Shown here piece by piece: positions 1,752 through 62,597 of a DNA stretch of 64,000 nt. The notes beneath the pieces were generated by a model. It was not told the DNA's origin and did not search any database. It saw only the letters and a list, made by a program, of their open reading frames with translations. This stretch comes from Perkinsus chesapeaki. Lineage: Eukaryota; Perkinsozoa; Perkinsida; Perkinsidae. The translations under genes were made by a program, and so were the position numbers. The number at the start of each line of letters is the position of its first letter. Position 1 is the stretch's first letter. The DNA lies in the NCBI GenBank assembly GCA_013115145.1, contig JAAPAO010000033.1:1-64000 (forward strand). Reading direction: 5' to 3'.

Positions 1752-3050
1752 GAGAATCAATAATTAAACAAAACTTGGAAGCATCCGGCCATTATTATCG
1801 TACTTTAAAAGCTATCAACTGTAACACATAGAACGACAGAGGCATTCCTATCGAAAAGTTACCCCCTATGAGTTGAAGATCTTCTCTGCACACCAGACAT
1901 GCTGGCTAGCTCATCCACAAGATTGACTCTCGAAGCATTAGTGGATTTTATAACACTTCCTTATAACCAGCGAACGCTGTAACATGGCGAATGTCAGTAC
2001 CACGTGAAGAGCTCATGGCGTAACGCTAGATTGCTCCATGTCGTACACCTAAGGATACACCTTGTGTTGAGAGATATCATTCTTGTTCAATGATCAAGTA
2101 CGGAGTTGAGGTTTGCAAACGAGAGTATACAATGATAGTATACTCCGAGAAAATAGTATGCCCAGAGTTGTCACTCCAAAACAGCTGATGGACAATAGAC
2201 GCCACATATGATACACTATACATCAGGTAAATCTTCACCCAGTATATAGCCGTTTATAGGCTTCTATAGGGTCCTTACCGCTGTAGTTGCACCAGCAAAT
2301 ACAAAACTCGTTACCGTATACTTATGATGAGGTTAACTAAACGTTAAGGGTACAATCTGAATACTCACCACGTACCACCGATTTATAGGATATCATGCTG
2401 CTATGTGGGAATAATGATATTGTATCGCAGAAGTTACGCGATTCAAGACCCGGGTTTAAGAAACCCGAATTAATTCCGTGACGGAACCAAACAGCGAGGA
2501 AGATTTGATGCGATCTTGTAAGATCAAACTGGTCAGATCGTCCTTCCCTTTCCAAGGGAGGGAGTATGGGTGGCCCACCCAGGGTGGGTCAAGAAAGGCA
2601 AGACCAGAGCTCGGCTGATTCACCGACACTGAATCCTTGAATCCCGTGACATGCATGATGCACACGCGCGAGTGACCGAAAGGCGGACTAGCTCGGATCT
2701 TACTTAAACACACTCCGTGTATCTCATATCTAACTGCAGACGACGAAGTAGTGAGAACGGCTAAACAAAACATAGTGCCATCTCGCTAAGGAGCTCAAGG
2801 TACCAGGACTAGTATGTGCGCCTTTCACGTAACCGAAATGTGAAACGACTCACGGTCTTTTAGCGATCACGCAAAGAACAGTTCTCGCGCGTCGCACTGT
2901 CTGCGTCCCTCTCTGGGCTTCCAGGTATCGTTATTTTCTCGAAAATTTTAAATCCTTCATTTCTCCCAGCGAGAAATGCTTCCCCCCGAAGAACCCGGAA
3001 AACCCGAGAAACCCGGACTCGAAGTAGGTCTGGAAGGATGTGTCATTTAA
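1752..3050. other. Gene-free stretch with many short palindromes
   Basis: No convincing exon is visible. Short frames around 2336-2773 on the minus strand do not look like protein. The DNA carries inverted repeats: 8-nt arms at 2123-2145, CGGGTTT/AAACCCG at 2451-2467, a 6+1+6 palindrome at 2568-2580, and CATTTCTC/GAGAAATG near 2958-2978. This style matches the denser palindrome zone further right. Confidence 0.5.
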
Positions 3051-3801: not shown

Positions 3802-5830
3802 TTATCTCCCTTCTCGGCTGTTACATATAATGCCACCATAACGACGATCAATTCTTCCCATCACAACACGTGGCAGTATTGTAATGTCACTTAGCAGTTT
3901 CCTGTCACCGAGAAGCACTTTAGTGTCGAATCCTTCTGTGCCATCAAGAATCGACCTGGACGTTGTACTATCAATCTAACAGATACATAACAGATATCTT
4001 GCATAGGTTGGTGAGAGGCTACCACCGTGACACTTACGATGGCACCGATACTGCCTGTCGTGGATATAGTCACAAATAGCACCCTTCCAGATCTTGTCAT
4101 TACTATGCTAGCATCATTATCACCATCCAAATCAACCGTACCAACGAGGGAACAAGGAATATCCATTCGGGCCGGATCCCCCACTAAAGTCCCCGATTTA
4201 GCCCCCGTATCGATCGAGCAATTCGCTTCATACAGGGTTTGTGCTGCTAAAGCCGAGTCTATCGATTATGAATAATACGGTGAAGCTGTAAAAATGAAAG
4301 GCTGGCGAGTTGGTTAGCGGGAGCCGCTAAAGGAAAAACGGTGGCCTGAGTGGTAAGTGAGAAGATTCAAGGAGACGCATCCAATACAACGAGAACAAGC
4401 CTTCAGGGAAACTATTCATGATCTGTATTGCGGACATTGATATTCATTTCCATTAAGTCTCGTACTACGCACCACCAGTAACTGTGCAGGATAATAATAG
4501 AATAGATATTGAAAAGACGTCAGAGAGGCCGAGGCCATCGGTAAAGGGTTTGTGTCCGTTGGAAAAACAATCAGGTCCAAACCAAAGGCATAGTTCCAAA
4601 GCATGTACCCAGTCGCTGCAGTAGCCTGGGAATACATCCGATTTGTATAGAGTGAATCGAGAAAGTACATCTATAATGCACACTCCCAAACCGTAACCAC
4701 AGAAAGCGGCACCTAGAAGGCCCACATGGTGATGAACGAGGCAGCAGTCAAGCAAAGGCTCGCCGCTAGGGAATGAATACGATGTAGAGTTTATTCTGAG
4801 GTAGACAATGCTCCTGTCAGAATAAAAGATGTAACCACATTGCCAACTTCCTGATGATACAATGACATCGGGGGAATGTGGTAGCTCTACTCTTTCAGTT
4901 GGGGGCTGCCAGGTTTGATTGAAAAGCCCGGCCACAAATCGATGAAGAGGATCATCATGCGATGGCCTCACTTCGAACCATGTCTGCCGTTCAAAGGATT
5001 CCGAATGGATTCCAGTGCTGAGGAACTGGCATTCTCTGTTAGTAATGTGGAAGATATAATCACCATGAGCCAGTAGACTCCCATGAGTTCCAATAGATGT
5101 AGCACTCAATTCCGTATTAAGTGTACATGACCACCTTCGTATGAGTCAAACTTTCTTAACCTTATAGTATATAATACCTTTATGATGTAGTACACAAGTT
5201 ACAGACATATCTGTAGAGACTTCAGCCAAAAGGGTATCCTCCGCAGGCAACTTTCGGCTAACAAGCTGTTGACTATCTTTCAGCCATACCGCCAGCGAAT
5301 CATCATTCAAACCCTGCCCATTGAATTGACCACATGGTTCCCAGGGCTGGAAGGTTATAGACTTCGACACCGTCAGCTGAAAAGGCCTCGCATATTGCCA
5401 AGTCAGCAATCTTATGCCTTAGAGCCCCTCGTCAACTTAGTCCCTGACAATAGATATCTACATAACCACTCTCCCACGCCTTAGTTGATGGGTCGAAGTA
5501 GCAGGGATGCACGACATCAAGACTACCGTCCCCAAATGGAAACTGAAAAGACAGTGATAAGTATCACGGTACACTCTTTGTTAAGAGCCCATAAGACTCT
5601 ACACAATGATTCTAGAGTCAATTGAAACAGTAACGTGTGGAGGCGGTGGGATATACAGTAATACGGCTCTATCATTATCAATGTCACAATTGAAAATGTC
5701 GCGCCACTCGGCACTAAAAATGGCTAAAAAATGTTTTTGTCGAGTTAGAGAATTCAGGAAAAAGGAATTAGCTCGAAATTCGACATACTTATCGATATTT
5801 TTGCCCGTCCAGACCGCGCATCTCTAGATG
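3802..5830 (-). CDS. FG-GAP repeat (beta-propeller) protein, ITFG1/TIP-like
   Basis: Several exons on the minus strand read as a secreted-type beta-propeller with calcium-binding FG-GAP motifs. In order from the 5' end I see AEWRDIFNCDIDNDRA, then FPFGDGSLDVVHPCYFD after an intron of about 60 nt. Then comes an exon with ITFQPWEPCGQFNGQG at about 5400-5150, a long exon with repeated Trp/Gly strand-turn patterns at 5100-4470, and GTVDLDGDNDASIVMTRSG at about 4120. The frame closes at a stop at 3802 after GRIDRRYGGIICNSREGR. DxDGDxD and FGDGSLD are the classic FG-GAP loops of integrin alpha chains and of the T-cell immunomodulatory protein family. The start is not defined; frames continue up to about 5830 and stop being readable where the RMND1 fragment begins. 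It could be decaying like its neighbour. Assignment to the TIP/ITFG1 family is inference. Confidence 0.5.
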
Positions 5831-5872
5831 TCGCGAACTGTAAGTACCAGAATACATCAGGTCACCTGATCA

Positions 5873-6578
5873 CCTTGATACACCTGATTCAGGTGTATCA
5901 AGAACATCACTATGTGGGTTGATATTACTCCGCTGGACAAAGAGTTCACCCATCTAATAACATTAGTTGGTGCCACTTAGTGCCAGGAATTATACCATAC
6001 CTTACCTTCTTAGTAACCTCAGTTATGCCTATACCAATTTTTCCCGTTCGCGCCAGATTCTCTGGTATATTTCTTGTCCCTTGAATAGTTCTATCTATAG
6101 ACCATTCGAATGAATCTAGTTTAACAGATTGCAGAAATGCATAGCTATATGCCAAACGCTCGTACCTACAAATACTAGGGTATGAAGGCCGATAGGGTCT
6201 AAGGCTTACACGCCGTCCGTGGAAAGATGGATATCATCATTAACAATACTCGACTGATGCCTTTCCTCATCAGTCTCTTCAGTACGAGCACAAGCAAGAG
6301 TATAACTAAGAAAGGAATAGATGATTATGGTAGGGGAGAGAGTGCCAAGTTGGCGTGTTGGCACTGCCCACACGTACACCATGTAGTCATCAAAGGTTTC
6401 AACTGCCGGTTTCTTTACGTAACTATGCAGAAGAGGGTTCTAGTATTATACCATTCATGCTGCTGACTACTTACGGTCGAAGAACGTGTAGAAGTTTCCG
6501 TCCTTCCTCAGAGGTGAGGCCCCAAAATACGATACAACCAAAATCGAAAAGGATTCATATTCATATTGGACTTGCAAT
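5873..6578 (-). pseudogene. Truncated RMND1/DUF155 family gene fragment
   Basis: RMND1/Rmd1 (DUF155) proteins are mitochondrial or membrane proteins needed for mitochondrial translation or sporulation. Minus-strand exons here read, in order, FDFGCIVFWGLTSEEGRK (6570-6490), YVKKPAVETFDDYMVYVWA, EETDEERHQSSIVNDDIHL, then SYAFLQSVKLDSFEWSIDRT with RNIPENLARTGKIGIG, and finally MGELFVQRSNINPHSDVLD. The family hallmarks VxFWGLTxEE, AQSVKL, IPExLAxTGKI and LDTPxFFWE are easily recognised. Introns of about 44-66 nt separate the pieces. The N-terminal third is missing: an in-frame stop lies just upstream of 6570. The 3' end stops at LDTPE, exactly inside the 14+1+14 palindrome at 5874-5902, before the expected FFWE motif. 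Scrambled PLAA fragments follow on the upstream side. I therefore call it a broken gene copy. Confidence 0.75.
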
Positions 6579-6599
6579 TTTTCACCAATATTCAAAAAC

Positions 6600-7010
6600 T
6601 AATTTCCCATAAAAACCAATGATAATAATACCACTTCCTCACTCGACAGCTTAGCTTCAGCATCTACAGAATAACGTAGCCTCAACCCCAGTAACAGGTA
6701 TAGCATAGGTATAGCATCGTGAACCTTCTCCGGAAATAGCTCTCTTTCATTGGGTCAAATTTAGCATCCTGTCTGTTTTACACAACCCCCCCGCTCAACG
6801 ACTCTCTAGTATTCTACCTTGAGTAGTTGTCGGTCTATTAATGTCAGTTGCATATGATGCGTTGATAAACTCGTCTGATGTACACAACCTGCCTGACAAC
6901 AGATGCTATCATACCATACTCCATCGACACACGACATCGACAACACAATACTACCTTGAGCCTTCAGGCTTGACTCAAGCCTTGATTGAGCCGCTTGAGA
7001 AGAGTCTCCC
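6600..7010 (-). pseudogene. Decayed fragment of PLAA (matches the 14450-14830 part of the intact gene)
   Basis: Base-by-base reading shows clear similarity to the intact PLAA gene further right. 'cttcctcactcgacagcttag' in this stretch mirrors 'tttcctcacttgatagctttg' near 14490. A 20-base run around TCAAATTTAGCATCCTG near 6755-6775 is the same as near 14612-14630. The pattern ending CTACCTTGA(G/A)TAGT recurs at about 6820 and 14667, and GATTGAGC...TTGAGA at about 6980 recurs at about 14810. Order and strand agree with the parent, but frames are destroyed by substitutions, indels and inserted palindromes. No functional product is expected. Confidence 0.7.
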
Positions 7011-7129
7011 CAGGAGACATTGGCTGAATAGTAACTATTCAATAGTTGACTAAGATAGTAACGGAGCTGAAACAGCCGGTGGCCCCCTGAAATTCAGGGC
7101 CTGAATTGATCATCATAAAGTCTACTATA

Positions 7130-7260
7130 TTATCTGTACATTACCAGTAAAAAGCGCAGCTTATCATCTACGGATACGGTGATTGTGACACCATTATGGT
7201 GTCACCATACTTCTCCGCTTCTCCTATAGAGAAGATAATTGAGAAGATAAAGCTCGTATT
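7130..7260 (-). pseudogene. Decayed fragment of PLAA WD40 exon (matches 16525-16630)
   Basis: The stretch CATTACCAGT...TTATCATCT(A/G)CGGA...TGTGACA and CTTCTCCTATA...AAGATAAT reproduces the intact PLAA exon encoding AVTVAVSADDKLCFTG and its flanking intron. Here the exon is interrupted by a 10+1+10 palindrome (7185-7205) that the parent lacks. The fragment is separated from the 6600-7010 fragment by little DNA, although in the intact gene the two segments are about 1.7 kb apart. The intervening exons have therefore been deleted or lost beyond recognition. Confidence 0.7.
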
Positions 7261-7270
7261 ATATCGAACC

Positions 7271-7341
7271 CGAATAACTTAATAGCCGAAAGTTACTCTA
7301 TATCACTCATACAGAGTAACTTTCGGCTATTAAGTTATTCG
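7271..7341. repeat. Perfect 29-bp inverted repeat with 13-nt loop
   Basis: The left arm 7271-7299 begins CGAATAACTTAATAGCCG. The right arm 7313-7341 is its exact reverse complement, with 13 bases between them. The structure lies just outside the PLAA fragment and is the longest perfect hairpin I saw in the window. No transposase or terminal repeat is attached to it. Confidence 0.95.
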
Positions 7342-9049
7342 TTTAAATGCTAGCATCTACCCATAGCGGCTACCCAGGCTGCCTCTTCCAGATAGCACAT
7401 GCCGAGAGCGCCCGTGAATTAAAGGTTTTGATTAATAACAGGACAAGTTTCACCTTCTGCGATTGATAACAGCTTGTCAAACTGAAAGACAACATACTAG
7501 CCCGCTCATTGTTCGTGGTAGTGATACTAATAGTATTATAGTAATATACTAGTAGTACTAATAGTAGTATAGTATTGAATTAATATAATATTCAGCGTTA
7601 CAAATCCTAGAACTATAATAAAATCCCCCGAACTTGAATCAGGGAATCCCAGTTATAGTACTACAGACTGTACTAGTAACTACACCATTTCTAGAGATTT
7701 TCTAGTCTTTCTAGAAATTCTAGGCCTCTTTAGATGAAGCCCGGACCTAATTAGTGAAATCCCAGAGCACATGAATGTAGCTGAGACCAAATTAATGAGA
7801 CCTCAGAGCGAATAAATGAAGCCCATACCAAATTAATGGAGCCTCAGGAAATGGTGTAGTAGTTGTATAACACCTCTAGTCGGATAAGCTGCTTACCATA
7901 AACGACCGCCACCTACGAGTTTGAGCTACAAGCTACACCTTGCAACAAAGGATGTTCGAGAATGCAAGACAGAAGTGACGCCAATGCGCAACACCAATTC
8001 CCTTGAGTCCTGTTCACCCGTCCTGCATACCTGTATTCAGTGAATACGATATCCGGAATATCCTACTACAGTGTAGTACGATATTCACTGGAAAAAGTGC
8101 TACGATAATCGTTCCATCATTTCCAGTGAAAAGTTTTCGCCGTTATCACTTCGAAATTAGAAGTTCGAATGAGCTCTGCGTGGCTTTTACGGCTCACTCT
8201 CGAAAGACTTTCATTATACCTTGCCGACGGTAAATTGCCATTGACGCGTCGTCGATACTCTATAGGAGAGAGTTTGATACTCTGAGTATCTACATTTCCC
8301 GGATCCTGCGAATCAAGCCTATCAAAGCTACCTTAGAATTCCATTATGCAGTTAGCTAAGCTAGCAGTTAGCTTAGGAATGGCGCGAAATCTCCACCTTT
8401 GGTATCTCCGTCTATTAAGTCCTCCGTGAGTGCGGAGGTCTCCGACTCGGAGACTCAGAGTACAGGAGTCCTGTAACAGGACCCGTACCTATGGCCCATA
8501 GGTTATGGGGCTATGTAAAATTTACAAACATACTACGCGCTCACCAAAGTGCTCTCAGATTGATTGTCCAGTGATGTTCGCATATGGGCCGTATGAAATG
8601 GCCCCATGCCTGGCCCCTGAGCATAAGAGGAAAGCCCCAGTGGCTCCCCGAATAGAAGTTCTCGTTGCACGTCAGCGATGTTTAACATCGGAGTTTATTA
8701 TAATTGTGAACCCCGAATGCGAAAAGCTTCTGCCGAAAATACATGCCGCCTGAAAACGAAGCTACCTATCGACTGATCCTAGACTAGGATCAGACAAGGA
8801 GTCACTCATCATTCTATGGGCCGTAGACTATGGCCCGCTCTTTCACAATGGATTGGAGTTTAATCATTGGAGTCCAATAATTGGACATAATGCTGATCAT
8901 CACCGGGTGATGCCACCAGTGGTGGCCCACCACCGAATATTGCTCAACAAGCAATGCTCAGATAGCGAGTTACACGTACAACATAACAAAACCCACTTCA
9001 ATTTACAACTATGACATTAGAGAGTTTGCGAGAAACGTATTGAAGTTAT
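7342..9049. other. Gene-free, palindrome-rich stretch
   Basis: No coding exon or RNA gene is recognised. Short frames at 8003-8233 and 8505-8753 lack protein-like content and are crossed by palindromes. Around 7725-7860 there are loosely repeated units containing AATGAAGCCC and ACCAAATTAATG(G/A)AG(C/A)CCTCAG. A run of TAGTATTA-type AT repeats lies at 7525-7580. Confidence 0.55.
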
Positions 9050-9081
9050 TATGTTAATAACATAGTACTAGTGACACTAGT

Positions 9082-10617
9082 CTAGTGCCGAGAAGTAGAG
9101 CCCTGGTACGCCGCCATGTACTGCTCGAAGCAGCTAGCAGCCGCCTTCTTCTTCTTGTGGACATCCTTGGGAACGTTACCACCAACCAGTACCATGACAT
9201 AAATAGCTAGCAATGCCTGCTGTTGAGTAACAGGCATGCTAGAGACTCCCGAAGTCGATCCTCCACGCTGTAGGATACGCAGTGTACTGCGCACCCTGTT
9301 CACGTACTCTCGAGCTTCCACCGGATGCAGAGTCACATGATCATAACGACCCAGACTACACCGATTTCCGCTTTCGACTACATGAGCAAGAGTACTCAAG
9401 GTTAGGACGCCAGGAGTCTTAACCCTGATACGCAGCTCACAGCGATACCCACCAAGATACGTGGGATCACGACTAAGACGAGAGTCAAAAGAGTTAAACA
9501 TAACCTCAAGTTGTCGCACAAGATTGCGGTACGACGCCAGCTTCTTGGGGACATTCCACCTCAAAGCATGGTTAGTACTGCGAATCGAGTGCCACAACCG
9601 AGGATAAAATAATACAAAGGCCTCAACGGCATCATTATCGATGCCGGGGATGTCGATATCGGTCTTAAATCTTATAGATCCGCTATCGACACCACCGAGG
9701 TCGTAAAGAAAAGAACGACTACTACAAATAGAACTAGTAAACAGACAAATGTCGTTACAGAGGCCAGTACGGCCTAGGTCATATGCTCTTACAGAAAATG
9801 TCCCACAGGGGACGAGCATACTATCAAAAGTAGAAATATACAGAGAGGTTAAGGGACACTTCTGCCCGTACAACCCTAGCAAGAGTGGACCTTGGTACAC
9901 TGCTTGCAGAGCTTCCGACAGAAGCCATCCACTTAACCTAAAGGCACCTCCAATGACCGTGCCTGGGAAGGCATTGGGTACCATGGAGATGCAGTAGCGG
10001 TGACGCAGATAGTCACAGAATGCATCTCTATCGAGAGTATTCTCGACAAAGAGCATATACGGAGAATCAGCCACCGTAATGAATGATGGATCGAGTCCAT
10101 CAGGCTCGTGACTGACACCAGTTAGGTGCCAAGATTCACTAACCTTCTCAAGTACTGAGTAGTCCACTGGGACTAAGAAGTAATCTATGTCTAACCCATA
10201 CGGGAAAGTCATAGATACTCCCTCGTCATCAGCTTGTACCACAGTAGAGCCTTGAGACTCACTACCAGTAGCCGACCCACCGCTCTGGACCATCTCGTCA
10301 CCCGACAGAACCACCGTCCCTGACTCAGAGGGAGAGTCAGGGATAACAATAACCGTCGAACCACTTGTGGTGGAAGTAGGCGACACCACTGCTTCGGCCT
10401 TCACCACCTCATCCGAGATCACCACAGGACTAGGAAGGGACAGGATCGGAGAAGTAGGCTCACGATCCATATCACTAGTGCCTGCTGGCAAGCAATTGCC
10501 GCCCCTCAAATGATTCTTCATCTGAGGTTTGGCAATTAGCTTACCACATCTCGGACAAGGCTCCTTGACATACTTGCGGCCAGCGGCGGTGGACGAACGA
10601 CGGCGGGTGGCGACCAT
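9082..10617 (-). CDS. Intronless orphan protein with N-terminal C2HC zinc finger
   Basis: One uninterrupted 511-codon frame starts with MVATRRRSSTAAGRKYVKE and ends at a TAG abutting a 7+1+7 palindrome. Residues about 20-42 form a CPRCGK...HLRGGNC pattern, a plausible C2HC zinc knuckle. Residues 43-135 are rich in Ser, Thr, Val, Asp and Glu and probably disordered. About 140-480 looks globular, with Tyr/Leu/Val-rich strands. A KKKKAAASC stretch and a short helix close the protein. I recognise no known fold. Being intronless and more GC-balanced among multi-exon genes, and sitting beside the gene graveyard, it may derive from a mobile element (for example a Gag-like or DNA-binding protein) or a retrocopy. 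No terminal repeats, polymerase or transposase are visible nearby. Confidence 0.75.
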   Translation of the reverse strand: MVATRRRSSTAAGRKYVKEPCPRCGKLIAKPQMKNHLRGGNCLPAGTSDMDREPTSPILSLPSPVVISDEVVKAEAVVSPTSTTSGSTVIVIPDSPSESGTVVLSGDEMVQSGGSATGSESQGSTVVQADDEGVSMTFPYGLDIDYFLVPVDYSVLEKVSESWHLTGVSHEPDGLDPSFITVADSPYMLFVENTLDRDAFCDYLRHRYCISMVPNAFPGTVIGGAFRLSGWLLSEALQAVYQGPLLLGLYGQKCPLTSLYISTFDSMLVPCGTFSVRAYDLGRTGLCNDICLFTSSICSSRSFLYDLGGVDSGSIRFKTDIDIPGIDNDAVEAFVLFYPRLWHSIRSTNHALRWNVPKKLASYRNLVRQLEVMFNSFDSRLSRDPTYLGGYRCELRIRVKTPGVLTLSTLAHVVESGNRCSLGRYDHVTLHPVEAREYVNRVRSTLRILQRGGSTSGVSSMPVTQQQALLAIYVMVLVGGNVPKDVHKKKKAAASCFEQYMAAYQGSTSRH

Positions 10618-10974
10618 TATTAATAAGAGTATTTAGCGTGTTAATACAACTGACAGAAAAGTGAGGAAGCGTAAACTTGCCCGAACAGTGGTCACCAAAT
10701 TTATTTAATCACCCGGAGGTTCGATCATCCCTCTGAGATGGACCATCCGAGACGAGCCATCCTTCATGACCACTGGCCAGTGAAGCAACCGTAAGTGTTA
10801 ATTTTTTAGCTGTACTAAACCCAAGCTCCCAATTCTTGAAATACTTAAACGTCCTTGTTTACTTTTAACTAGTGAAGAAACTGGATCGACCCTAGACCGG
10901 GGCCTCTGGGACTAAATGATAAATTCATCGAAGTTACTTACTCCCTTATCGTAGGCGGCATCCCCGGCTCGGAA
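10618..10974. other. Intergenic region between zinc-finger ORF and kinase
   Basis: No exon seen. It presumably holds the promoter of the zinc-finger ORF and the 3' flank of the kinase gene. A perfect 12-bp palindrome CACTGGCCAGTG lies near 10777. Confidence 0.4.
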
Positions 10975-13318
<2,344 letters not shown>

Positions 13319-13705: not shown

Positions 13706-16700
13706 CTAAGCCTGGTAATGCCCCCTTATTACTCTGTAAAGTATCTCAGAATCACCAAGTTGAATCTGCCTTAGAGTCCCCAGAATGAAAGGTGCAACTG
13801 CTTTGTAGCTCAGCCCCAATGCCTTGTCTGGTACAGCTTCGGAGATATTCACAATAACCTGTACACCAACGCTCAACATCAAACCCCAAAATTTCCGGAA
13901 TTACCGAAGCACAGGCAATCCTTGTATGCTTGTTTGTAGATTGTGTTATAGCACAAGTGACTGCCGGCAGAACCACCTTAGGGGCCATATCACACAAGAC
14001 CGTTCGATTGGTACCTACGATACTATGCGAAGAAGGAGGGACACACACATTACTGAAGGCAGCCATATTAGCCAGGAACCTTGAACAACATATGCTCAAA
14101 GGCGATGAACATGTTGCAGGGTCCCGAAGGTATTTACTAACCATTTGCACATACACCAGTCCTCTGAAAGATATGAATGATAATCTTGATGCAAGGTAAA
14201 AAAGAGAGGAATTTTGGTGATAAACAAGCACCTCATCGTTTTTACCTGTCAGCGCTCTTGAAGACATCAGCTCCATTCTCTTCAAGTAGCATCATTCGTG
14301 CTAAGTCCACACCAACAAAGAGGCCTTGATCAGGTTTCCATGTTGGTAGTAATCTAGACCATAGAGTATAGATCGATTCGTATTGAAACTAATGATACCA
14401 TTCATGAACTATAGCCCAAACTGCTAGTATATTACCTTCTTATTTCTCGATGAAGTCTTTAAAACATCAATCATCGCATCTAGGCTGACCATTTCCTCAC
14501 TTGATAGCTTTGCTTTATCACCTGCACATTACCATATCTCCAACCCTAGCCACAATAAACTACTACCATTGGGTATAGCATCATTAAGCTCATGTAGCTT
14601 TTTCTTCATTGAATCAAATTTAGCATCCTGCCAGTTGAACATTACCTCAATAGTACTCTTACATTTTACCTTGAATAGTATCGGATCCATTAAGGGGAAA
14701 TGTTTCATATGATGAGCTGGTACACTACTCTGAGGTGTATTATTCGCCTAATAATACCATCATGTTGCCATAAACCATCTACAATACTACCTGTGATGAT
14801 GGAGGTGGTACTGATTGAGCTGCTGATTGAGACGGTACTGTGGCCGCCGAACTAGCTGATGCCCCTTGTGTATTGGTCTTTATAAAATCCATTATCTGGT
14901 GTATGTTAGATTTATCAATCTACATATATGAGGGAAGTATGATACTTTTGTAATTAAAGTAATTTATATTCTACCTGTTCACGGGCACAAAACTTCTCAG
15001 CTGTTACTAACGGATTGTCCCCATTATTAAACGGTAACTGTGCCATCCTACAACGAGCAGCAACGATGATGTTCTAACCCCACCCGAATTGTAATACCTC
15101 TCCGCAGAGCCAAGTTCAACATCAAATACATAATCATAAGAACCCGCTGGGAAGTACTGGTCACCCGGATACTGTTTCTTATCTGCTTTACCAGTTACCA
15201 CACCTAATAATCCGTGTTATTACTAAACCATACTTAAGCATTACCAATCTGTTGCCAAGCACCACTAGCCCACTGACATGCAATAACTTCATTCCCTCGT
15301 CTAAACATCTTGACTTCACCGTTTTTACGACCTTTAGTCGTATACCTATTTCAATACTAATCATAGTACACACCCTATGCCTTACATTGTATTAATATCT
15401 GGTACTGAATCGAGTGGGACAGCACTAGCACCTTTACCAGCTGCCTCAGCTGCACTTGCTTCGGCCAATGATTTCAAAGTCTCTCTTTCCTCTAATGGTG
15501 CCATCTAACACTAGATGCCAAAGAAGGGGCATCACTAATACTACCAGATCAACTTCATTTGTCCATATCCTTACAATACCATCACTACATCCAGATACAA
15601 TAACCCCTTTAGATATCTGCTTAACACACCATACCGTGCCTGGATGTAGTAACGAGTTGCCTGTTGGTGTGGTTGACTCTAACGGCGACCAGAACTGAAC
15701 GGCAACAGTAAGATTAGGCGAAGGCTGGGGAACTACCTTGACATTTCTATCATCACTGGCTGTGGTTAGTAGACCAAAATCCCAATCGCAACCAAAGACA
15801 AATCCACTATGACCAGCCAGAGTGACAGTAGATGAAGGTATGTTATATCCACATCCATCCTCCCTTAGCTCGGGTGCAGGCCACACCTACTATGAGGTAC
15901 GTTAATACCGAAACTTTATAGTCTCACCTTAACCATACAATCGTTACTGACGCTTGCAAAACTACCAGATGAGGCATCAACAGCAAATGCTCGAATGATA
16001 TCCTCATGAGCATGAGGGATAGAGCCTGCGAATGGATGTTGTGAAAATTGATGTAGAAATATATTACCAAGCAATGTCCCATCGGATATGTTCCAAAACT
16101 TGATAACACCATCTTGAGCACCTAATTACATGACCTCTAGCTAAAAATGCCACAATTTACACTTGTTGGTTGTCAGGTGACTTGTAGTATACAAGTTTAA
16201 CATTGAGATGAGTTTAATATCCTACTATTCTAGTGATATTAGCCATCATCGTAGGCAAATTCAGTTTCGCCGTTCGCTATCAGCAAAATGGTCTATCATT
16301 CTTGTAACCAGCAACAGCTTTACGAGAGACCGCGTGTGAATATCCCTGTGTTGCTGAGAGCCCGGTACCCAGTGCAACACCTGGAATGAGCAAAGTTCAC
16401 CATTTCTGCGTCTGAACTCCTGGAACAACTCTCCAACGTATGCCTCCGTGAATCACAAGGGTTGAAAGTTTTTTGTGTGTTTGGTGGAACATTCCCCTAC
16501 CCCTTCAGTGTTGTGTCCACCCGTTATTACCAGTGAAGCATAGTTTATCATCTGCGGACACTGCAACTGTGACAGCATACTTTCCTGCTTCTCCTATAAT
16601 AAAGATAATCAACAAGATAGGAGTTAGTATAAAATACCTTTCCATATTGGCTCCTCAGTTTGCCCATCTATACGCCAGCATTTAACCATACCATCCCATC

Positions 16701-18828: not shown

Positions 18829-20831
18829 TTAAGCTACTCGCTGGTGGTCAATGCAAAACTGTTTAATACGGTAACATGCTTCAACAATTTTATCCTTGGG
18901 AGGGGTAATGACTATCCTGAAGAAATCCTTGAGCTGGAAGCATTGACCAGGTAAGACAAAGACAGCTTGTTCTTCGAGGAGTAACCTAGGGGAGAAAAAC
19001 GTGTAAACTGCTGTTGTGAAGGACGGTATTACCTGCTAAAGTTGATATCATCTTTCACATTAATAACACTAGTGTCAATTCCAATCATCACATACATAGC
19101 AGCCTAATTCTATTTTTATTGACCATGAATTCATATATACCTTACTTGTGGTTCAACAACTGTCAGACCGGGTATGCCCTTTAGTGTATCCACAATAACT
19201 CGGGAATTCTCAGATAGCTAAGAATGAACAATCATCATCATAATAATAATCTTCATCACAGCATCTCTACTCAGTACCATTCGCTTGTTGCTATCATGAT
19301 AAAAAGTTGGGGTATCCTTGAGTAAGCTCGGTACCTGATGAAAAGTCGGTACAACTGTTTTAAGTGTGATGTTGAGCATCATATAACATACAACCGATTG
19401 AAGGAGACTGGCTGGCCCTAAAGTCAATGTGGAAAGATCATGTAGCCCTTGACGGACATCTTCCATCACTCCACCTAAATAGGTTAAGTTATGGCCAACA
19501 CAATAACCACCTACCTCGATCATGCAGGCATACCCAACCCACTCTCCATCCAGGGACCATAAACCTACATAATGATACACCGGCGGACATGTTACATCAC
19601 ATCATCTAACCGCTTGGCTATGCCTCCTATTGATAATATGGGTACAGTATCAGACACTGATGCAAATGGTGTAACAGGCATACCATCAAATGACTAATAA
19701 CAGGAAACATAATCAAAGAATTTAGGAACACTTACCATATCGTGGTAAATCTCATCAGCGATGATAGGTATATTATCATAACTGAAAAATAAGAGAAGAA
19801 TACTACAATTGGGAACAACCTTTTGTGTACCTCTGACATAGTTTAATAACATCCCTAATATGTTCTTGGGACCAGTTGCTACCACAAGGGTTACTTGGAT
19901 TGTTTAGTAGCACTGCTTTAGCGTTGCCTTTATTATACTCCAAGCACTTTTGTAAAGAATCCATATCAACCTATACTAGAAGCATAACATCCTCTTGTTT
20001 TACTATGTTGATTTTCACCTCAAACTTTCTATCACTTCTCAAATTATAAAAGTCAACACCGATACCCCTTGAAGAACACAGGGTATCTAAGACAGAGTGC
20101 TTATATAGTGTACACCTAGGATGACATCAACTATATAGAGGAAAGGCTGGCCGTGGAAGCAATACTGTGTCCTTTCCATTAGCATTTGCCAGAACTGCTA
20201 TTGACATATCGATTGCCTACAATAATATAAGTAGCATGGTGCTTTAGAATGTGTTACCTGACTTGCACCACATGTCATAATAACATCATCTACTGTTGGT
20301 ACAGGGTGATCTGATCGAACACTTTAAAATGAGCTGCAGGTCTCTGTTGAATACCCGAATTAACAGAGTTTTCATCAGCTACAGCTTGCCGAGCTGCAGC
20401 ATAACCACACGAATGAGGATAACCATTATAGGAGAAGGACCTGTTGGACCCACAAGTCAAAATATCTACTCTTTTCAAACGGTGTATCGATTACTGACAC
20501 TTCAACCGTTATTCGTTGGCTTACCGAACATTCTCACGTAGCACGCTGTCTACGATGTGCTGAGGGGCTCTGAAGTTACCATATACGGTCGGATCTCCAA
20601 TCGAGAGCTGTATAAATGAAGTGTAGATGGGACGCTGTGATGAGGTGCTTCTGTATTACAGGTATGGTTTCTAAACTAGGGTTTGGTGTAACCTTTAGTT
20701 GATCAACTATTTTCCTATTAGCAAGCATTAGGGTTACTTGAACGGTCAGGCATTCACCTTATCGGGTTCGAAGTCCTAGCAGCAACTAAACTCTTTGGGA
20801 TAGCCCTATGTAGATCCGGTGCTACAGGCAT
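18829..20831 (-). CDS. Tyrosine/aromatic aminotransferase (class I/II PLP enzyme)
   Basis: This enzyme transfers the amino group of tyrosine (or a related amino acid) to 2-oxoglutarate using pyridoxal phosphate. The likely start at 20831 gives MPVAPDLHRAIPKS, then TSNPIRKIVDQLKVTPNPS, LSIGDPTVYGNF, NGYPHSCGYAAARQAVADE, DDVIMTCGASQAIDMSIAVL and DTVLLPRPAFPLYS. Next come VNNPSNPCG-like and IPIIADEIYHDMVFDG (PLP-binding Asp and Tyr), then VPILSIGGIAKR with the Schiff-base Lys. The end reads LEEQAVFVLPGQCFQL and FRIVITPPKDKIVEACYRI. The order and spacing match tyrosine aminotransferase closely. About ten introns of roughly 44 nt interrupt it. The adjacent carrier gene could supply 2-oxo acids, but I see no sign that they are linked functionally. 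Confidence 0.9.
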
Positions 20832-21093
20832 GATGTCAGACAAAAAACAGATGCGGTAAAGGGGAGAAGCCAAACTAACATAGAAAGGCTGCAAGTCACT
20901 GAAGATACATTAATATAACCACAAGTAGCATAGGCAGGTAAAGAAAACGTATGTCATGTATACAGCGCTAGTTACATAACAGTTACTCCCTCAACAGTAA
21001 CTAAGTTACTTAGCCAGAGTAGTAGCCCGATGGTTGTAACAAACAGGTGGTCAAACATGATAGACATAAAACAATGATATTGATGATTCTAGC

Positions 21094-22421
21094 TCAGACT
21101 CCCTTGACAGGTCTGACTGCTGCTGCTGCTCTATCACCCAAGTATGCAGTGACTTGCTCATACACCACTAACATAATTCCACCACCTGGTCCAAGGCGAA
21201 GAATCTTTGGAGCCAGACCCTTCCATAATGCAGTTATCTATTATTTATAATACTTAGTTACAGTTGGTTAATACTCACCCCCTCAGTGCGTGCTATATGC
21301 ATCAGTAGAGGTACTGTTCTGCTAGGTACCTATCGTATTCGAATAACTGTGCTCTGATTAATGCTACCCTACAGCTGAGAGTTTTTCGGCATCCATGGGC
21401 CGAGCCTGTTTCAACGCTGATAGGTTTTGCATTCGAGTCTTAACAACATCAAGTGGTGTATTCACACAGCATCCTAGTGAACCAGCGATCGTTCCTAATG
21501 TTAATACATAACTTCATATCAGGAGGTACGGACGGTACCCGCTATGAAATTCATGGATTTACCATCCCCAGTTGTTGAAGACAACGCCGACTTTATAGCA
21601 AATATGCTACCAAAGTACGTACCTGATATTGGGATGCATTATTATTGCCAAATGAAGTGTGATATACCGTTCCAGCATGCATTCCTGAGTAGTGTACAAC
21701 ACAAGCCGGTGAATAGTGCCCCTACTCCCTCTTGTCGAATAATCGATCCTGCAGCCTAAACTAGCATTATGAAATACACGGTGTTTGCTACGTGTTATTA
21801 TACTTGCATGCTTGAAGTATATAAGCCTTTATTGTCAGGTAGTTGCATTCGGATCTTAATAAGCTCAGGAGAGCATACAATAGCTCCCTCACAGACACCT
21901 GCACCAACACCACTCATTAGTGCTAGACTCTGACCATTATATCCATACCTAAACACACCACGACGAGGAAGAGGAGGAGACACGATAATTATGAACAACA
22001 CACCTCCCAAAAGTATCCCGCAGTTCCGAGTTAGCAGAAAATTTTAATGCCCGTTTAGGTGTTTCAGAAAGGAGAGGGAAAAGCATCCCACGATATATAT
22101 GGATACGTTCATGTTTAATAGCTCTACCAAGCACCTGATGAGGAGGGACATTATTATGTACAGGTATATTAATAGGTATATGGCCCGTATACCTACAACG
22201 AACATATTCTCCTGTCGACCAGTACCTGCCATTGCTCTAGTTTTAACGACATCCAAAGGATACCTGTAAGATGAATAACAATACTTAGTAATAAATGAAT
22301 GCTACATAGCAGTTAGTTCTGTCATGCCAGCAATGCCTCCTGCAATAACACTATGAGAGAATGGCACGACAGCAGGAGGGGAAGGAGACTGGGTAATAGC
22401 TGATGATGACGATGACGGCAT
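21094..22421 (-). CDS. Mitochondrial carrier, probably oxodicarboxylate carrier (SLC25A21-like)
   Basis: Mitochondrial carrier family proteins exchange metabolites across the inner membrane. The start at 22421 gives MPSSSSSAITQSPSPP, then HSVIAGGIAGMTELTAMYPL followed by DVVKTRAMAG, the first PX[DE]XX[KR] signature. Repeat 2 shows SGVGAGVCEGAIVCSPELIK and IRMQLPDNKGLYTS. Repeat 3 shows LGTIAGSLGCCVNTPLDVVK and TRMQNLSALKQA. The end is GLAPKILRLGPGGGIMLVVY with the stop at 21094. AGMTELTAMYPLDVVKTR and CSPELIKIRMQ most resemble 2-oxoadipate/2-oxoglutarate carriers (yeast ODC1/2). The substrate is inferred from these motifs only. Introns of about 42-65 nt are present, and one exon region (21950-22200) is hard to phase. 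Confidence 0.85.
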
Positions 22422-33259: not shown

Positions 33260-34198
33260 CTATAGATGCTTTGTTGAAGATGTCATCATCTCAATAACCG
33301 AATCCTCTTTATTATCTTCTATAACCCAGCTTACACCATCCCCAACAGGTCTAGACTTAACATTATGATGTGGTATAAACCACCATACCACACTCGACCC
33401 CATAACTTGCTCGATATTCCTTCTCCTACCAATATCATATTTAGATCGTTTACTTAGTCGAGATGACGATGATGATGATGATGTGCTCTGCCGCCGCTTC
33501 CCTCCTACCGTTTCCCCATTATCTAAATTCTCTATAGTAGTGCTATTATCCATAACCAGACCCAAATGGAACTTTATAAAATTAGTTAAAGTAGCCATGA
33601 AGAATATTGCAATGATATAACTAAGTAATATAAAAACATCGCCTACGTCTAATAGTCTAATATCAATTATAATGACCTCTCTTAAATGAATATATAATGG
33701 ATATATACCAGTAATAATATAGAGTAATAATGTAGCATATACATATAATAATAACTGTATAAAGAACTTCCTATTATAGAAACCAACACAGTTATTTATC
33801 CATGGGCAATGATGATCCATATTAAGATTACATCTATTACATATACTACAGTGGTGTGTTCTCTCAGGCTTCCATACATTACACATTTTGCAGTATCGCC
33901 GTCTCTTACTCTCCTCACCTATATGAAATCCCCAGTATAATGGTACTGTTCCTGGATCAGTAGTAACAGCCATATATAAAGACCATAATACCATTAAAGT
34001 TAATATATGAAATAATATTAATATAACCTTAGCTGATAGAGATGGTAATAGTGGAAGCCATGACAAGAATACAAATCCAATATACTCCAGGGATATAAAA
34101 CATATAACAACTAATACAAACCATAGACCATAATCATTATTAGGTTTATTAGAACGATTATAGGACTCAGCTAGTAGTAGATGTGAAGTGTCATACAT
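33260..34198 (-). CDS. DHHC palmitoyl transferase (zDHHC), single exon
   Basis: DHHC enzymes attach palmitate to cysteines of membrane-associated proteins through an acyl-enzyme on the DHHC Cys. This 312-residue frame is intronless. Two membrane segments (about 24-45 and 52-78) lead to the DPG motif (81-83). The Cys-rich domain (about 103-137) has CKMC, THHCSICNRC and DHHC at 128-131, followed by CPWINNCVG. Two more membrane segments (about 146-166 and 186-207) follow, then the TTxE motif as TTIE and a Ser-rich cytosolic tail. Length and topology are normal for a four-span enzyme of endomembranes. Lack of introns is unusual next to such intron-dense neighbours and could mean intron loss by retrocopying. 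Confidence 0.95.
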   Translation of the reverse strand: MYDTSHLLLAESYNRSNKPNNDYGLWFVLVVICFISLEYIGFVFLSWLPLLPSLSAKVILILFHILTLMVLWSLYMAVTTDPGTVPLYWGFHIGEESKRRRYCKMCNVWKPERTHHCSICNRCNLNMDHHCPWINNCVGFYNRKFFIQLLLYVYATLLLYIITGIYPLYIHLREVIIIDIRLLDVGDVFILLSYIIAIFFMATLTNFIKFHLGLVMDNSTTIENLDNGETVGGKRRQSTSSSSSSSRLSKRSKYDIGRRRNIEQVMGSSVVWWFIPHHNVKSRPVGDGVSWVIEDNKEDSVIEMMTSSTKHL

Positions 34199-59711: not shown

Positions 59712-62597
59712 ATGGGCACATCACGGGATAGGAGGAGCCTTACTCCTACCGATGATGATGAAGATACTCGGGGATCTAGAGGACGCGATCGGAAAAGTGA
59801 TGATGATAAAGTAGAGGAAGATGAAAGGTGGCACAGATCAAAGGATGAGGGTAGTCCTACTAAGAAGGAAGAGAAGGGTGATGGTGATAGGAAGAGGGAC
59901 CGTGATGATGGTGATAGAAAGAGGGACCGTGGTGATGGTGATAGAAAGAGGGACCGTGATGATGGTGATAGAAAGAGGGACCGTGGTGATGGTGATAGGA
60001 AGAGGGACCGTGATGATGGTGATAGGAAGAGGGACCGTGATGATGGTGATAGGAAGAGGGACCGTGATGATGGTGATAGAAAGAGGGACCGTGATAATGT
60101 TGATGATAGGAGTGAACGCCGCCATAGCTGTAGACGTAGAGGGGATGATGATAGAAGGGATGATAGACGTAGAGGAGAAGATAGGAGGAGAAGTAGTAGA
60201 AGTAGAGGTAACACTATAGAGAGAATAGATGTAATGTATCATATAATCAGATCGCCGTGGTGGGGGACATCATCGTGGTGCTCGTGGGCATCATCATCAT
60301 GATGATGATAGAGATAGGTCTAGGCGCAGGAGTCCTAGTCGTAGACGTAGATCTAGAGAACGGAGGCCGACCAATCGAAGGAGTAGGTGGAGCCGATCTC
60401 CAGAGAGACGTAAACCTTTTAAGTAATAACAGTAGTATAAGGCATAATACATGTTTATTATTATTATGTGCTATCAGATTTGATTCACCACCAAAGGAGT
60501 TAGCAGCTACCTTAATGGGGAACGGTGGCAGTGGGGGTTTGGTAATAGGGAACTTGATAGATTATAGATGATAGGGTTGTTATTATTATAGTTACCACAA
60601 ACAGTAGTGTCATCATCATCCACTATAAAGGAGGCATTCAATGCTACCTTAGCAGCTGAAAGGCAAAAGATAGCTCGGGAGCTATATATAGGGCAGATAC
60701 CGCCTGGGGTAATAGAAGGAAGCACTTGGAACCAGTATGTAATAGTAATAGTATACTTATTATTAGATATCAGCTGGAGTATTGATAGATGTACTTAATG
60801 ATGGTTTAATGAATATGGGGGCTAATGCAATGCCAGGCAGGCCTATTGTTCATGGATGGCTAGGTAATATATAATAAGTAGTATTATTAAAGAGTAATAC
60901 ATCAGGTGGAGATGGCTTATTTGCTTTCGTTGAGTTTCGTACAGCAGAGGAGGCCAGTATAGCCCTTGATCGTCTCAATGGGCATCAATTGAAATCCTAT
61001 GGTAATAATAATAATATATTATAAATGACTCATACGTGGGTACGTCAGGAGTAACTATAAAGGTGGGGCGACCTAAAGGGTATATGGGGCCAGCACCTGA
61101 GGATTCAGCTAATGCATATAATGCTGGTAATAATAAAGGACCATCAGCAGCAGAAGGTAGTACTTGTTTATATTAAGTATTCAGTAGTAGTAATTATTGT
61201 TATTTTATTAGTATCATCTGATACTAATAGATTATGCCTCATTGGTTTCCCGTTGGATTCTAGTGAGCATTCTATTAAGAAGGCCTTACGTACTGCTGCT
61301 AAGGGGGATATAAGGCATCTAGAGCTACTTAAACATATATGGAATAATAAGCTTATTGTAATATATTACATAATACTGCTTCTACTCACTCATCATCATT
61401 CATTAGGTACTGGCAGTTTTCGAATGTGAAGATCCAGAAAGTGAGTTACGATTGAAGAGGAAGGGTGAGGTTGAAATACATGGTAAAAGGGCTAAGATAA
61501 TCAATCCAAGAGATGCCATTGTTAAGGGGTAATAAGAGTAATGGTGATAAATATACTATAGGGGTATACTAATAGGTATATGAATCTAGACGGTGAGATA
61601 ATAAAAAAGGGTATGGGATTGGCTATAGTACCATCGAGGATACTTGTAATGACTAACTTTGCTGGTAGTGTTGAAGAGTTATTAGATGATGTTAATTATA
61701 ATGATTTATTAGAGGTAATAATAAGAGTAACCTATATTAGGCATTACCCTTTATAGGATATCAAATTGGAATGTAAATCGATAACTGGTGGAGTTGATGT
61801 TCGCAGTATACTAATACCGCGCCCAGAGACAAGTACAGCAGGAGGAGGAGGAGGAGGAGGGGTTAATACGCCTAATGGGGTTAATGGTAGTAGTAGTACT
61901 ATCCATCATGATTCTGCTACAATGGATGATAATATGGTAAATATAGGTTATAATAGCAACTAGTCCTATTGTGATGGTGCTTAGGATGACCACAACAACA
62001 CCCCATCATCGGCAGCAGCAGCAGCAGTGCCAGCCGTGGATATGCAAGTCCCCGGTCTAGGATGTTGTTTTATGGAGTTCCGTAATGTTGAGGAAGCTGC
62101 TCAGGTTAAAAGGATAATAGATGGACGTAATGTGGTTTGGTGTTGGTGTTGGGGTTGTTATTATCCTTCCGTAATAAGAGGTATATTATTAGGTATATTC
62201 GGAGGTCATGAGGTATTTGTTACTTACTTCTCTGAGACACGTTTTAAGAGGGGTGACTTTGCCAATCCAATGCCTAATACTGATGAGCCAGGTACTAGTT
62301 AAGGGACTAGTTAATTATATAATAATGTATTTTGCTCAGAGGTTGGATTGAAGGATATTGGTCCGAATCCACCACCAATAGATGATGGCATGGATGATGA
62401 AGAAGATGATGATGATGATATGGATGTAGAAGGGAGTGATAATGGTATGGATATATTGGATACCAATGATACCAAGGTAACAATAACATATAGAAAGGTA
62501 AAGAAGTTAATACTGGTATTGATAGGTGCGTAAGAAGGCACCACCACAAGCACCAGCCGTCCCATTAGCTGCAGAGGACCTTGAGATAATAGATTAG
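59712..62597 (+). CDS. U2AF2: Splicing factor U2AF large subunit (U2AF65)
   Basis: U2AF65 binds the polypyrimidine tract and recruits U2 snRNP to the 3' splice site. The start MGTSRDRRSLTPTDDDEDTR leads into a charged RS/RD domain containing eight DGDRKRDRD repeats, then RRRSPSRRRRSRER. RRM1 shows RELYIGQIPPG, then after a 58-nt intron ISAGVLIDVLNDGLMNMGAN, and GDGLFAFVEFRTAEEASIAL. RRM2 begins NRLCLIGFPLDSSEHSIKKA but is short of the usual RNP1. The C-terminal UHM shows LVMTNFAGSVEELLDDVNYN, DIKLECKSITGG, DVRSILIPRPE, VPGLGCCFMEFRNVEEAAQV and EVFVTYFSETRFKRGDF. A final exon adds an acidic tail, and the stop is at 62597. Introns read at about 42-66 nt. Confidence 0.92.
59880..60095 (+). repeat. 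Eight 27-bp tandem repeats coding for DGDRKRDRD/G
   Basis: Each unit is GATGGTGATAG(G/A)AAGAGGGACCGTG(A/G)T, eight copies in a row and in frame within the U2AF65 gene. The copies differ at only two positions (AGG/AGA, GAT/GGT), so the array is young or homogenised. It lengthens the Arg/Asp domain by 72 residues. Confidence 0.97.

Follow-up and report, generated by a model that had tools for sequence, protein, structure and literature searches.

What process fills a few kilobases of a protist genome with short palindromes that fold around one unpaired base? The question is raised by positions 5856–9081 of the first 64 kb (the window) of a Perkinsus chesapeaki contig of 122,482 bases, here called C257, which belongs to an assembly of 35.4 Mb in 884 contigs. 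An earlier note on this stretch had counted at least a dozen such palindromes and ascribed them to a local process that copies a short tract back on itself. Here we describe that most of these palindromes are parts of a 22-base unit built around an 8-base target, and that such units are very probably the excision footprints of a transposon of the hAT superfamily, whose excision left hairpin-sealed chromosome ends that were rejoined.

Results and Discussion

Excess of palindromes with a single central base

Between 5856 and 9081 we find 24 palindromes with arms of at least 7 bases and a 1-base centre, while 200 dinucleotide-preserving shuffles of 5801–9100 gave a mean of 0.23 and a maximum of 2. 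The excess is real, and the dozen of the earlier note was an undercount. All palindromes listed there are present in the sequence, including the 15+1+15 at 8056, in which 14 of 15 bases pair; only the arm length at 7026 needed correction, as this palindrome is an 8+1+8 starting at 7025. With spacers of 0 and 2–8 bases combined, the same stretch shows only a mild rise (4 versus about 1.4 in shuffles). Over the entire window, spacer 1 was counted 38 times versus 6.45 in shuffles (maximum 11 in 20 shuffles), with 28 of the 38 lying within 5.8–12 kb. Nor is the excess confined to the window: ten stretches on other contigs, picked without regard to homology and comprising 91,853 bases excluding N, contain 29 spacer-1 palindromes against 8.0 expected.

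The 22-base unit and the 8-base rule

The palindromes had been taken as separate events, yet many adjacent palindromes form a single unit between them, their centres lying exactly 7 bases from each other (in the window at 7025/7033, 7085/7091, 7185/7195, 8461/8468, 8912/8919 and 11703/11710). Pairs with this offset reduce to T[1–7]+rc(T)+T[2–8], where T is any 8-mer, the target, and rc(T) its reverse complement; we refer to this 22-base form as class A and to longer palindromes, with or without filler, as class B. T occurs once in an empty paralogue, whereas the scar has three copies of it, the middle one inverted and the outer two each short of one base. Ten of the 24 palindromes of 5856–9081 lie in five perfect units, five in one-mismatch units and two in two-mismatch units, and a class B event accounts for two more; among random 7+1+7 palindromes of equal base frequencies, 2.4% of 20,000 trials come within two mismatches of the unit.

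The length of T is fixed. Exact units were sought for k=5–14 with 0–3 bases trimmed on each side in 247,125 bases, namely the window, the remainder of C257, contig C526, part of C170 and the ten stretches. With one base trimmed, k=8 yielded 29 units against 0.0009 expected and k=7 and k=9–14 yielded none, while k=5 and k=6 gave 7 and 1 versus 3.8 and 0.24 expected; the total of exact units in this sample of about 250 kb ranges from 29 to 35 depending on the low-complexity filter. Three matches at k=10, from the search that trimmed three bases, prove to be class A units extended by one pair per side. A gap scan, using another filter and leaving the length of the middle part free, found gap 8 in 35 fully explained cases and in none of the shuffles, with no case at gaps 5–7 and 9–25. 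Gaps 1–4 gave 3, 8, 8 and 2 cases versus 4.0, 4.0, 3.4 and 1.0; at k=9, gaps 2 and 3 gave 6 and 3 versus 1.0 each, and at k=7, gap 1 gave 24 versus 12.6. A third scan, which looked for two 1-base centres at most 120 bases apart implying the same T and tolerated one mismatch, returned 45 pairs at k=8 (39 class A units, five pairs lying far apart and one overlapping a class A unit) against a shuffle mean of 0, and 5, 5, 1, 0 and 0 pairs at k=6, 7, 9, 10 and 11, all 11 of which carry the allowed mismatch. Exact units at k=8 only, in agreement with the gap and centre-pair scans, are what an 8-bp target site duplication (TSD) leaves behind.

Allowing for 0–4 mismatches in 258,125 bases, a sample that additionally includes contigs C665 and C305, we counted 32, 26, 36, 76 and 387 units versus 0, 0, 2.0, 28.3 and 278.3 in shuffles. 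This series indicates gradual decay, with scars ranging from perfect to decayed.

Longer palindromes, empty sites and inheritance

T is identical within each of the five far pairs. One joins 5856 and 5874 in the window, and the others lie on C526 (0-based centres 7063/7098, 9480/9514, 10721/10760 and 12278/12312). Arms measure 14+1+14 at 5874 and up to 24 elsewhere, and the inverted copy continues past T into the flank; in all five pairs at least one arm (13–24) does so. The copied sequence is therefore flanking DNA and not part of the element, as expected for a chromosome with hairpin ends. From the arms, copied lengths of 14–25 bases on the right-hand and 5–22 on the left-hand side are obtained (5–25 overall).

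The event at 5856..5902 illustrates class B. The palindromes at 5856 and 5874 had been treated as independent, although both belong to this single event and both centres imply the same T, ATCAGGTG. T1–7 occupies 5856–5862, rc(T) 5863–5870 and a CAC filler 5871–5873, followed by the right-hairpin copy (5874–5888), T2–8 (5889–5895) and the right flank up to 5902. We had deduced ATCAGGTG from the scar before examining the sequence of C305, which, like C665, carries stretches paralogous to the window; opposite the scar, C305 shows the empty site ATAC-ATCAGGTG-TATCAAG. For three class B events an empty copy was found, which matches T exactly in two cases and with one difference in the third.

Of the 57 class A units that are perfect or have one mismatch, 11 have a spanning paralogue in the sample, and the empty form fits this paralogue better in 8 of the 11, one case (8149) being weak. 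In five paralogous pairs, 7 of 22 indels of at least 8 bases are exactly 14 bases long, any other length occurring at most twice, and indels of 41 and 46 bases are class B scars. The direction of change can be read at one site. The unit at C526:11276 (L011 1276–1297) interrupts a tRNA-Ala copy for which ARAGORN makes no call, while the empty paralogue at C526:21483–21555 is called tRNA-Ala; recognition of a gene in the empty paralogue alone suggests that the site was empty originally, with the reservation that the interrupted copy carries further changes besides the scar. Other scars are common to paralogues (7085, 8676, and C665 827 with window 8581). These predate the duplications and thereby demonstrate inheritance, the paralogues sharing some scars being about 20% diverged. 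We conclude that the scars are inherited, of mixed age, and reside in the nuclear genome of what is most likely a Perkinsus-like alveolate. The DHHC protein encoded at 33260–34198 shows 65% identity across its full length to a Perkinsus olseni protein, and among the best 120 of its 967 matches the fully readable organism names are P. olseni, P. chesapeaki and Alexandrium catenella.

C526 carries an internal duplication (9317–11396 / 19633–21589; 82% identity by BLAST, 92% outside gaps in a global alignment). Of its ten gaps of at least 8 bases seven are scars, every one in the first copy, as though hits on this copy had been much more frequent.

Target preference

The 62 T sequences, from 57 class A units with at most one mismatch and five class B events, are all distinct, and the arms, described earlier as unrelated, indeed share no common sequence family. 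The earlier note had also taken them to lack a consensus; thymine at position 2 and adenine at position 7 are, however, found in 50% of sites versus 27.8% in the background (p=1.9e-7, orientations pooled). This nTnnnnAn preference amounts to a weak target consensus. The proposed copy-back process thus holds insofar as each tract contains its own inverted copy, but it is not free-running, being bound to a fixed 8-base T and to preferred targets.

Origin of the scars

The units are very probably footprints of hAT excision. The sequences themselves establish the 22-base unit, its restriction to 8-base targets, the preferred target bases and the empty sites, and at one site the polarity. From these we infer the identity of the transposase, the chemistry of nicking and hairpin formation, the annealing repair and the nucleases, as follows. 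Insertion would duplicate the 8-base target T, and on excision the transposase would nick one base outside each element end. The flanking 3' end would then attack the opposite strand, by which both chromosome ends would become hairpin-sealed, with T1–T7 joined to T8' at the left end and a corresponding arrangement at the right. Each hairpin tip would be a single unpaired base, the complement of the base adjoining the element; the observed centres are the complements of T8 and T1, matching the published Ac/Ds rule for hairpins offset by one base into the flank.

Hairpins opened well back from the tip would end in self-complementary 3' tails, and opening at least 8 bases from the tip at both ends would expose complementary rc(T) copies. 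Since both tails would contain rc(T), annealing would be possible over exactly 8 bases, and annealing, trimming and filling would probably produce T[1–7]+rc(T)+T[2–8] with a net gain of 14 bases regardless of the exact opening point. Tails joined elsewhere would instead yield long palindromes with 1-base centres, with or without filler, which are the class B scars. The class B copied lengths fit hairpins opened at some distance from the tip; the distance at which Mre11 complexes nick blocked ends is not far from these lengths. The genome contains matches to Mre11, one A-family polymerase and a Ku domain with three stops in frame, perhaps owing to an intron; as all three are present, they leave the choice of repair pathway undecided, and a loss of Ku that forces annealing repair is unsupported, given the Ku-domain match. 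A further idea, which we regard as rather unlikely, is a dedicated hairpin resolution in this lineage, in which far opening, annealing of inverted copies, trimming and filling would form one route, possibly using a hAT transposase that is domesticated by the host or present in very few copies. Such a route would leave a genome with thousands of uniform scars and almost no remaining elements.

Profile searches, which ignored introns and scored the best candidates alone, located hAT domains in the genome, with PF05699 matching at four places and PF14291 at two, contig C379 appearing in both. The presence of these domains counts for hAT excision. Several observations weigh against it. The recognisable relics are few (four and two places), a second copy of the 214-residue hAT piece on C379 was not found, and no intact element with an 8-bp TSD and terminal inverted repeats (TIRs) stood out in about 260–280 kb. 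TIR-like pairs at k=8 were no commoner than shifted controls, TSDs of 6–10 bp having been tried, and at k=9 one TIR class was highest unshifted with 48 versus 10–39. Known hAT footprints are heterogeneous and consist mostly of short P-nucleotides, while here such short products are slightly raised at most in the gap scan and the 8-base product stands nearly alone; this heterogeneity, however, describes usual repair outcomes and not the transposase reaction. Five of the 24 palindromes (6966, 8033, 8064, 8773 and 9050) are not assigned to any unit. Among the 11 units with a paralogue the filled form scores better in three, which we read as older shared scars, and five of the eight empty-site cases sit in the one C526 duplication. 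The responsible element was not found, so that it is from the scars that we assign the transposase to a family.

One candidate element was tried and rejected. A 43-bp repeat ends at 5842 in the window, with ends of the form TA-CAGT..ACTG-TA, and four two-ended copies, on C94, C11, C845 and C329, show no 8-bp flanking duplication. The stretch 5694–5842 is an end fragment of this repeated element (TIR TACAGTACGCGACATCTAGAGATGCGCGGT; two-ended copies of about 0.2–2.4 kb), which looks Tc1/mariner-like with a TA target.

Alternative explanations

Excision by another superfamily with a TSD near 8 bp (MULE, Merlin, KDZ, P or a Dada relative) would leave scars of similar kind, and we judge it improbable. 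MULE-domain matches, nine in the genome, exceed those of hAT, which speaks for it, but MULE TSDs are longer. We know of none of these groups that combines the nTnnnnAn preference with flank hairpins offset by one base. A KDZ search gave no match and was uninformative, its control likewise matching nowhere, and Merlin and P were not searched for. Dada elements are described from Perkinsus marinus with tRNA genes as targets, which recalls the scar in a tRNA copy, but the TSD given for them is 6–7 bp.

Polymerase template switching, by copy-back on the nascent or the opposite strand, could make each palindrome separately; it would account for inverted copies with 1-base centres and even for the class B fillers. 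It should nevertheless give varied lengths and favour no particular targets, in conflict with exact units at 8 bases alone, gap 8 alone and the nTnnnnAn preference, and two separate long palindromes with one common 8-base T are likewise foreign to it, which makes it very improbable. An artefact of sequencing or assembly is hardly credible, because, although library preparation can generate short palindromes, the units decay by mismatches, some of them recur in paralogues that differ by about 20%, and T shows a preference. Functional hairpins or protein-binding palindromes maintained by selection would explain the three units common to paralogues, and are equally hard to believe with 62 of 62 T differing, an empty paralogue for 8 of 11 units and visible decay.

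Comparison with known systems and implications

hAT excision, our preferred explanation, can be compared with well-studied relatives. The hAT element Hermes is reported to prefer 8-bp sites of the form 5'-nTnnnnAn-3' (PMC10368747); the scar targets show the same preference, a feature of the Hermes-like branch, along with the same 8-bp TSD, the difference being that an intact element was not identified here. Ac/Ds footprints are described as deletions plus palindromic insertions, the centre of which complements the base adjoining the element, with arms reaching 20 in S. cerevisiae (PMC5873905). The Ac/Ds systems in plants, S. cerevisiae and C. albicans thus follow the same centre rule, by hairpin formation and then end joining, but give many products, with copies of at most 3 bases in C. 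albicans, whereas a single product with exactly rc(T) dominates here and the scars lie scattered across a natural genome (PMC5873905). In Kat1, a domesticated hAT transposase of Kluyveromyces lactis, hairpins mostly lie 1 base from the TIR, as proposed for our scars, although Kat1 serves mating-type switching and the scars occupy many scattered sites (PMC4763223). mPing is described to be repaired by TSD microhomology after 3-bp staggered cuts, which restores the site; it shares the guidance by homology within the TSD, while annealing of inverted copies over 8 bases would add 14 bases (PMC4561436). In our literature search we noticed no report of genome-wide scars of such kind, nor of any in Perkinsus, and as subscription papers lay outside this search we make no claim of priority. 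The kind of scar is known, namely a hAT excision footprint; its form is new in its near-uniform product, its great numbers and the few recognised hAT elements.

In the ten stretches we count 15 units, 7 of them perfect and 8 with one mismatch; a single stretch holds 9 of the 15. Naive extrapolation gives about 2,700 perfect units in the assembly, a rough figure because the units cluster. If units that are perfect or have one mismatch are considered, C257 has 12 within 7.0–9.1 kb, but none is listed for the roughly 100 kb from 11.7 to 112 kb, so that hot and cold zones exist.

The 22-base signature makes past excisions readable without the element and without a reference genome, and yields the target sequence, minimum hairpin-opening lengths, a relative age estimated from accumulated mismatches and a history of the repair that was chosen. 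Any genome could be scanned for the unit in order to count hidden hAT activity. The near-uniform product suggests that hairpin opening and joining in this protist lineage differ from those in yeast and plants, and the scars also show where some natural short hairpins and 14-base frameshifting insertions come from.

Individual footprints and neighbouring features

The class A footprints of the window begin at 2567..2588 with a perfect unit whose T is of low complexity (TGGGTGGG). Perfect units follow at 7026..7047 (GAATAGTT), where the paralogue C665 shows a 14-base gap, at 7085..7106 (CCCTGAAT), common to C665 and there bearing 3 extra bases, and at 7188..7209 (ACACCATA), where exactly 14 bases are absent from C665. 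The unit at 8149..8170 has one mismatch and weak empty-site support, and those at 8269..8290 (AGAGTATC) and 8439..8460 (TCTCCGAG) have one mismatch each; for the latter, a 14-base gap against C665 appears in the BLAST alignment, a gap that other aligners fail to reproduce. A perfect unit at 8461..8482 (TACAGGAC) is followed by one with a single mismatch at 8488..8509 (CCTATGGG) and one with two at 8676..8697 (CGATGTTA), the same footprint being present in C665.

The 10+1+10 palindrome at 8773..8793 falls outside the assigned units and is perhaps a one-sided event, in which the left hairpin was copied and the right target copy lost. Further units are found at 8813..8834 (one mismatch), 8865..8886 (TATTGGAC, one mismatch), 8891..8912 (CGGTGATG, two mismatches), 8912..8933 (GCCACCAC, perfect) and 9067..9088 (ACTAGTGT, one mismatch), and the perfect unit at 11703..11724 has T=ACCATCAG.

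The unit at 9067..9088 overlies the stop codon of an open reading frame (ORF) on the reverse strand at 9082–10617, which encodes 511 amino acids beginning with a CxxC...HxxxxxC pattern. Its relatives are an 852-residue frame on C526 (29% identity) and a 401-residue frame with an OTU protease domain on C170 (82% over 55 residues); in the protein collection it matched itself alone, the 7999 candidates sharing most words having been scored. A long imperfect inverted repeat at 7271–7341, with an opposite-strand self-match of 93% over 71 bases, is not of the 1-base-centre type and forms part of 57 bases that are inserted with respect to C665. Neither Rfam nor tRNA scans of the window gave a match. 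At 59879–60104 a 27-base tandem repeat (8.4 copies, 95% matches) overlaps ORFs on both strands. On C526, a 34-bp tandem repeat at 13756–14041 (L011 3756–4041) carries a palindrome centred on 3 bases in eight copies; it is unrelated to the scars and makes up most of the spacer-3 excess on that contig.

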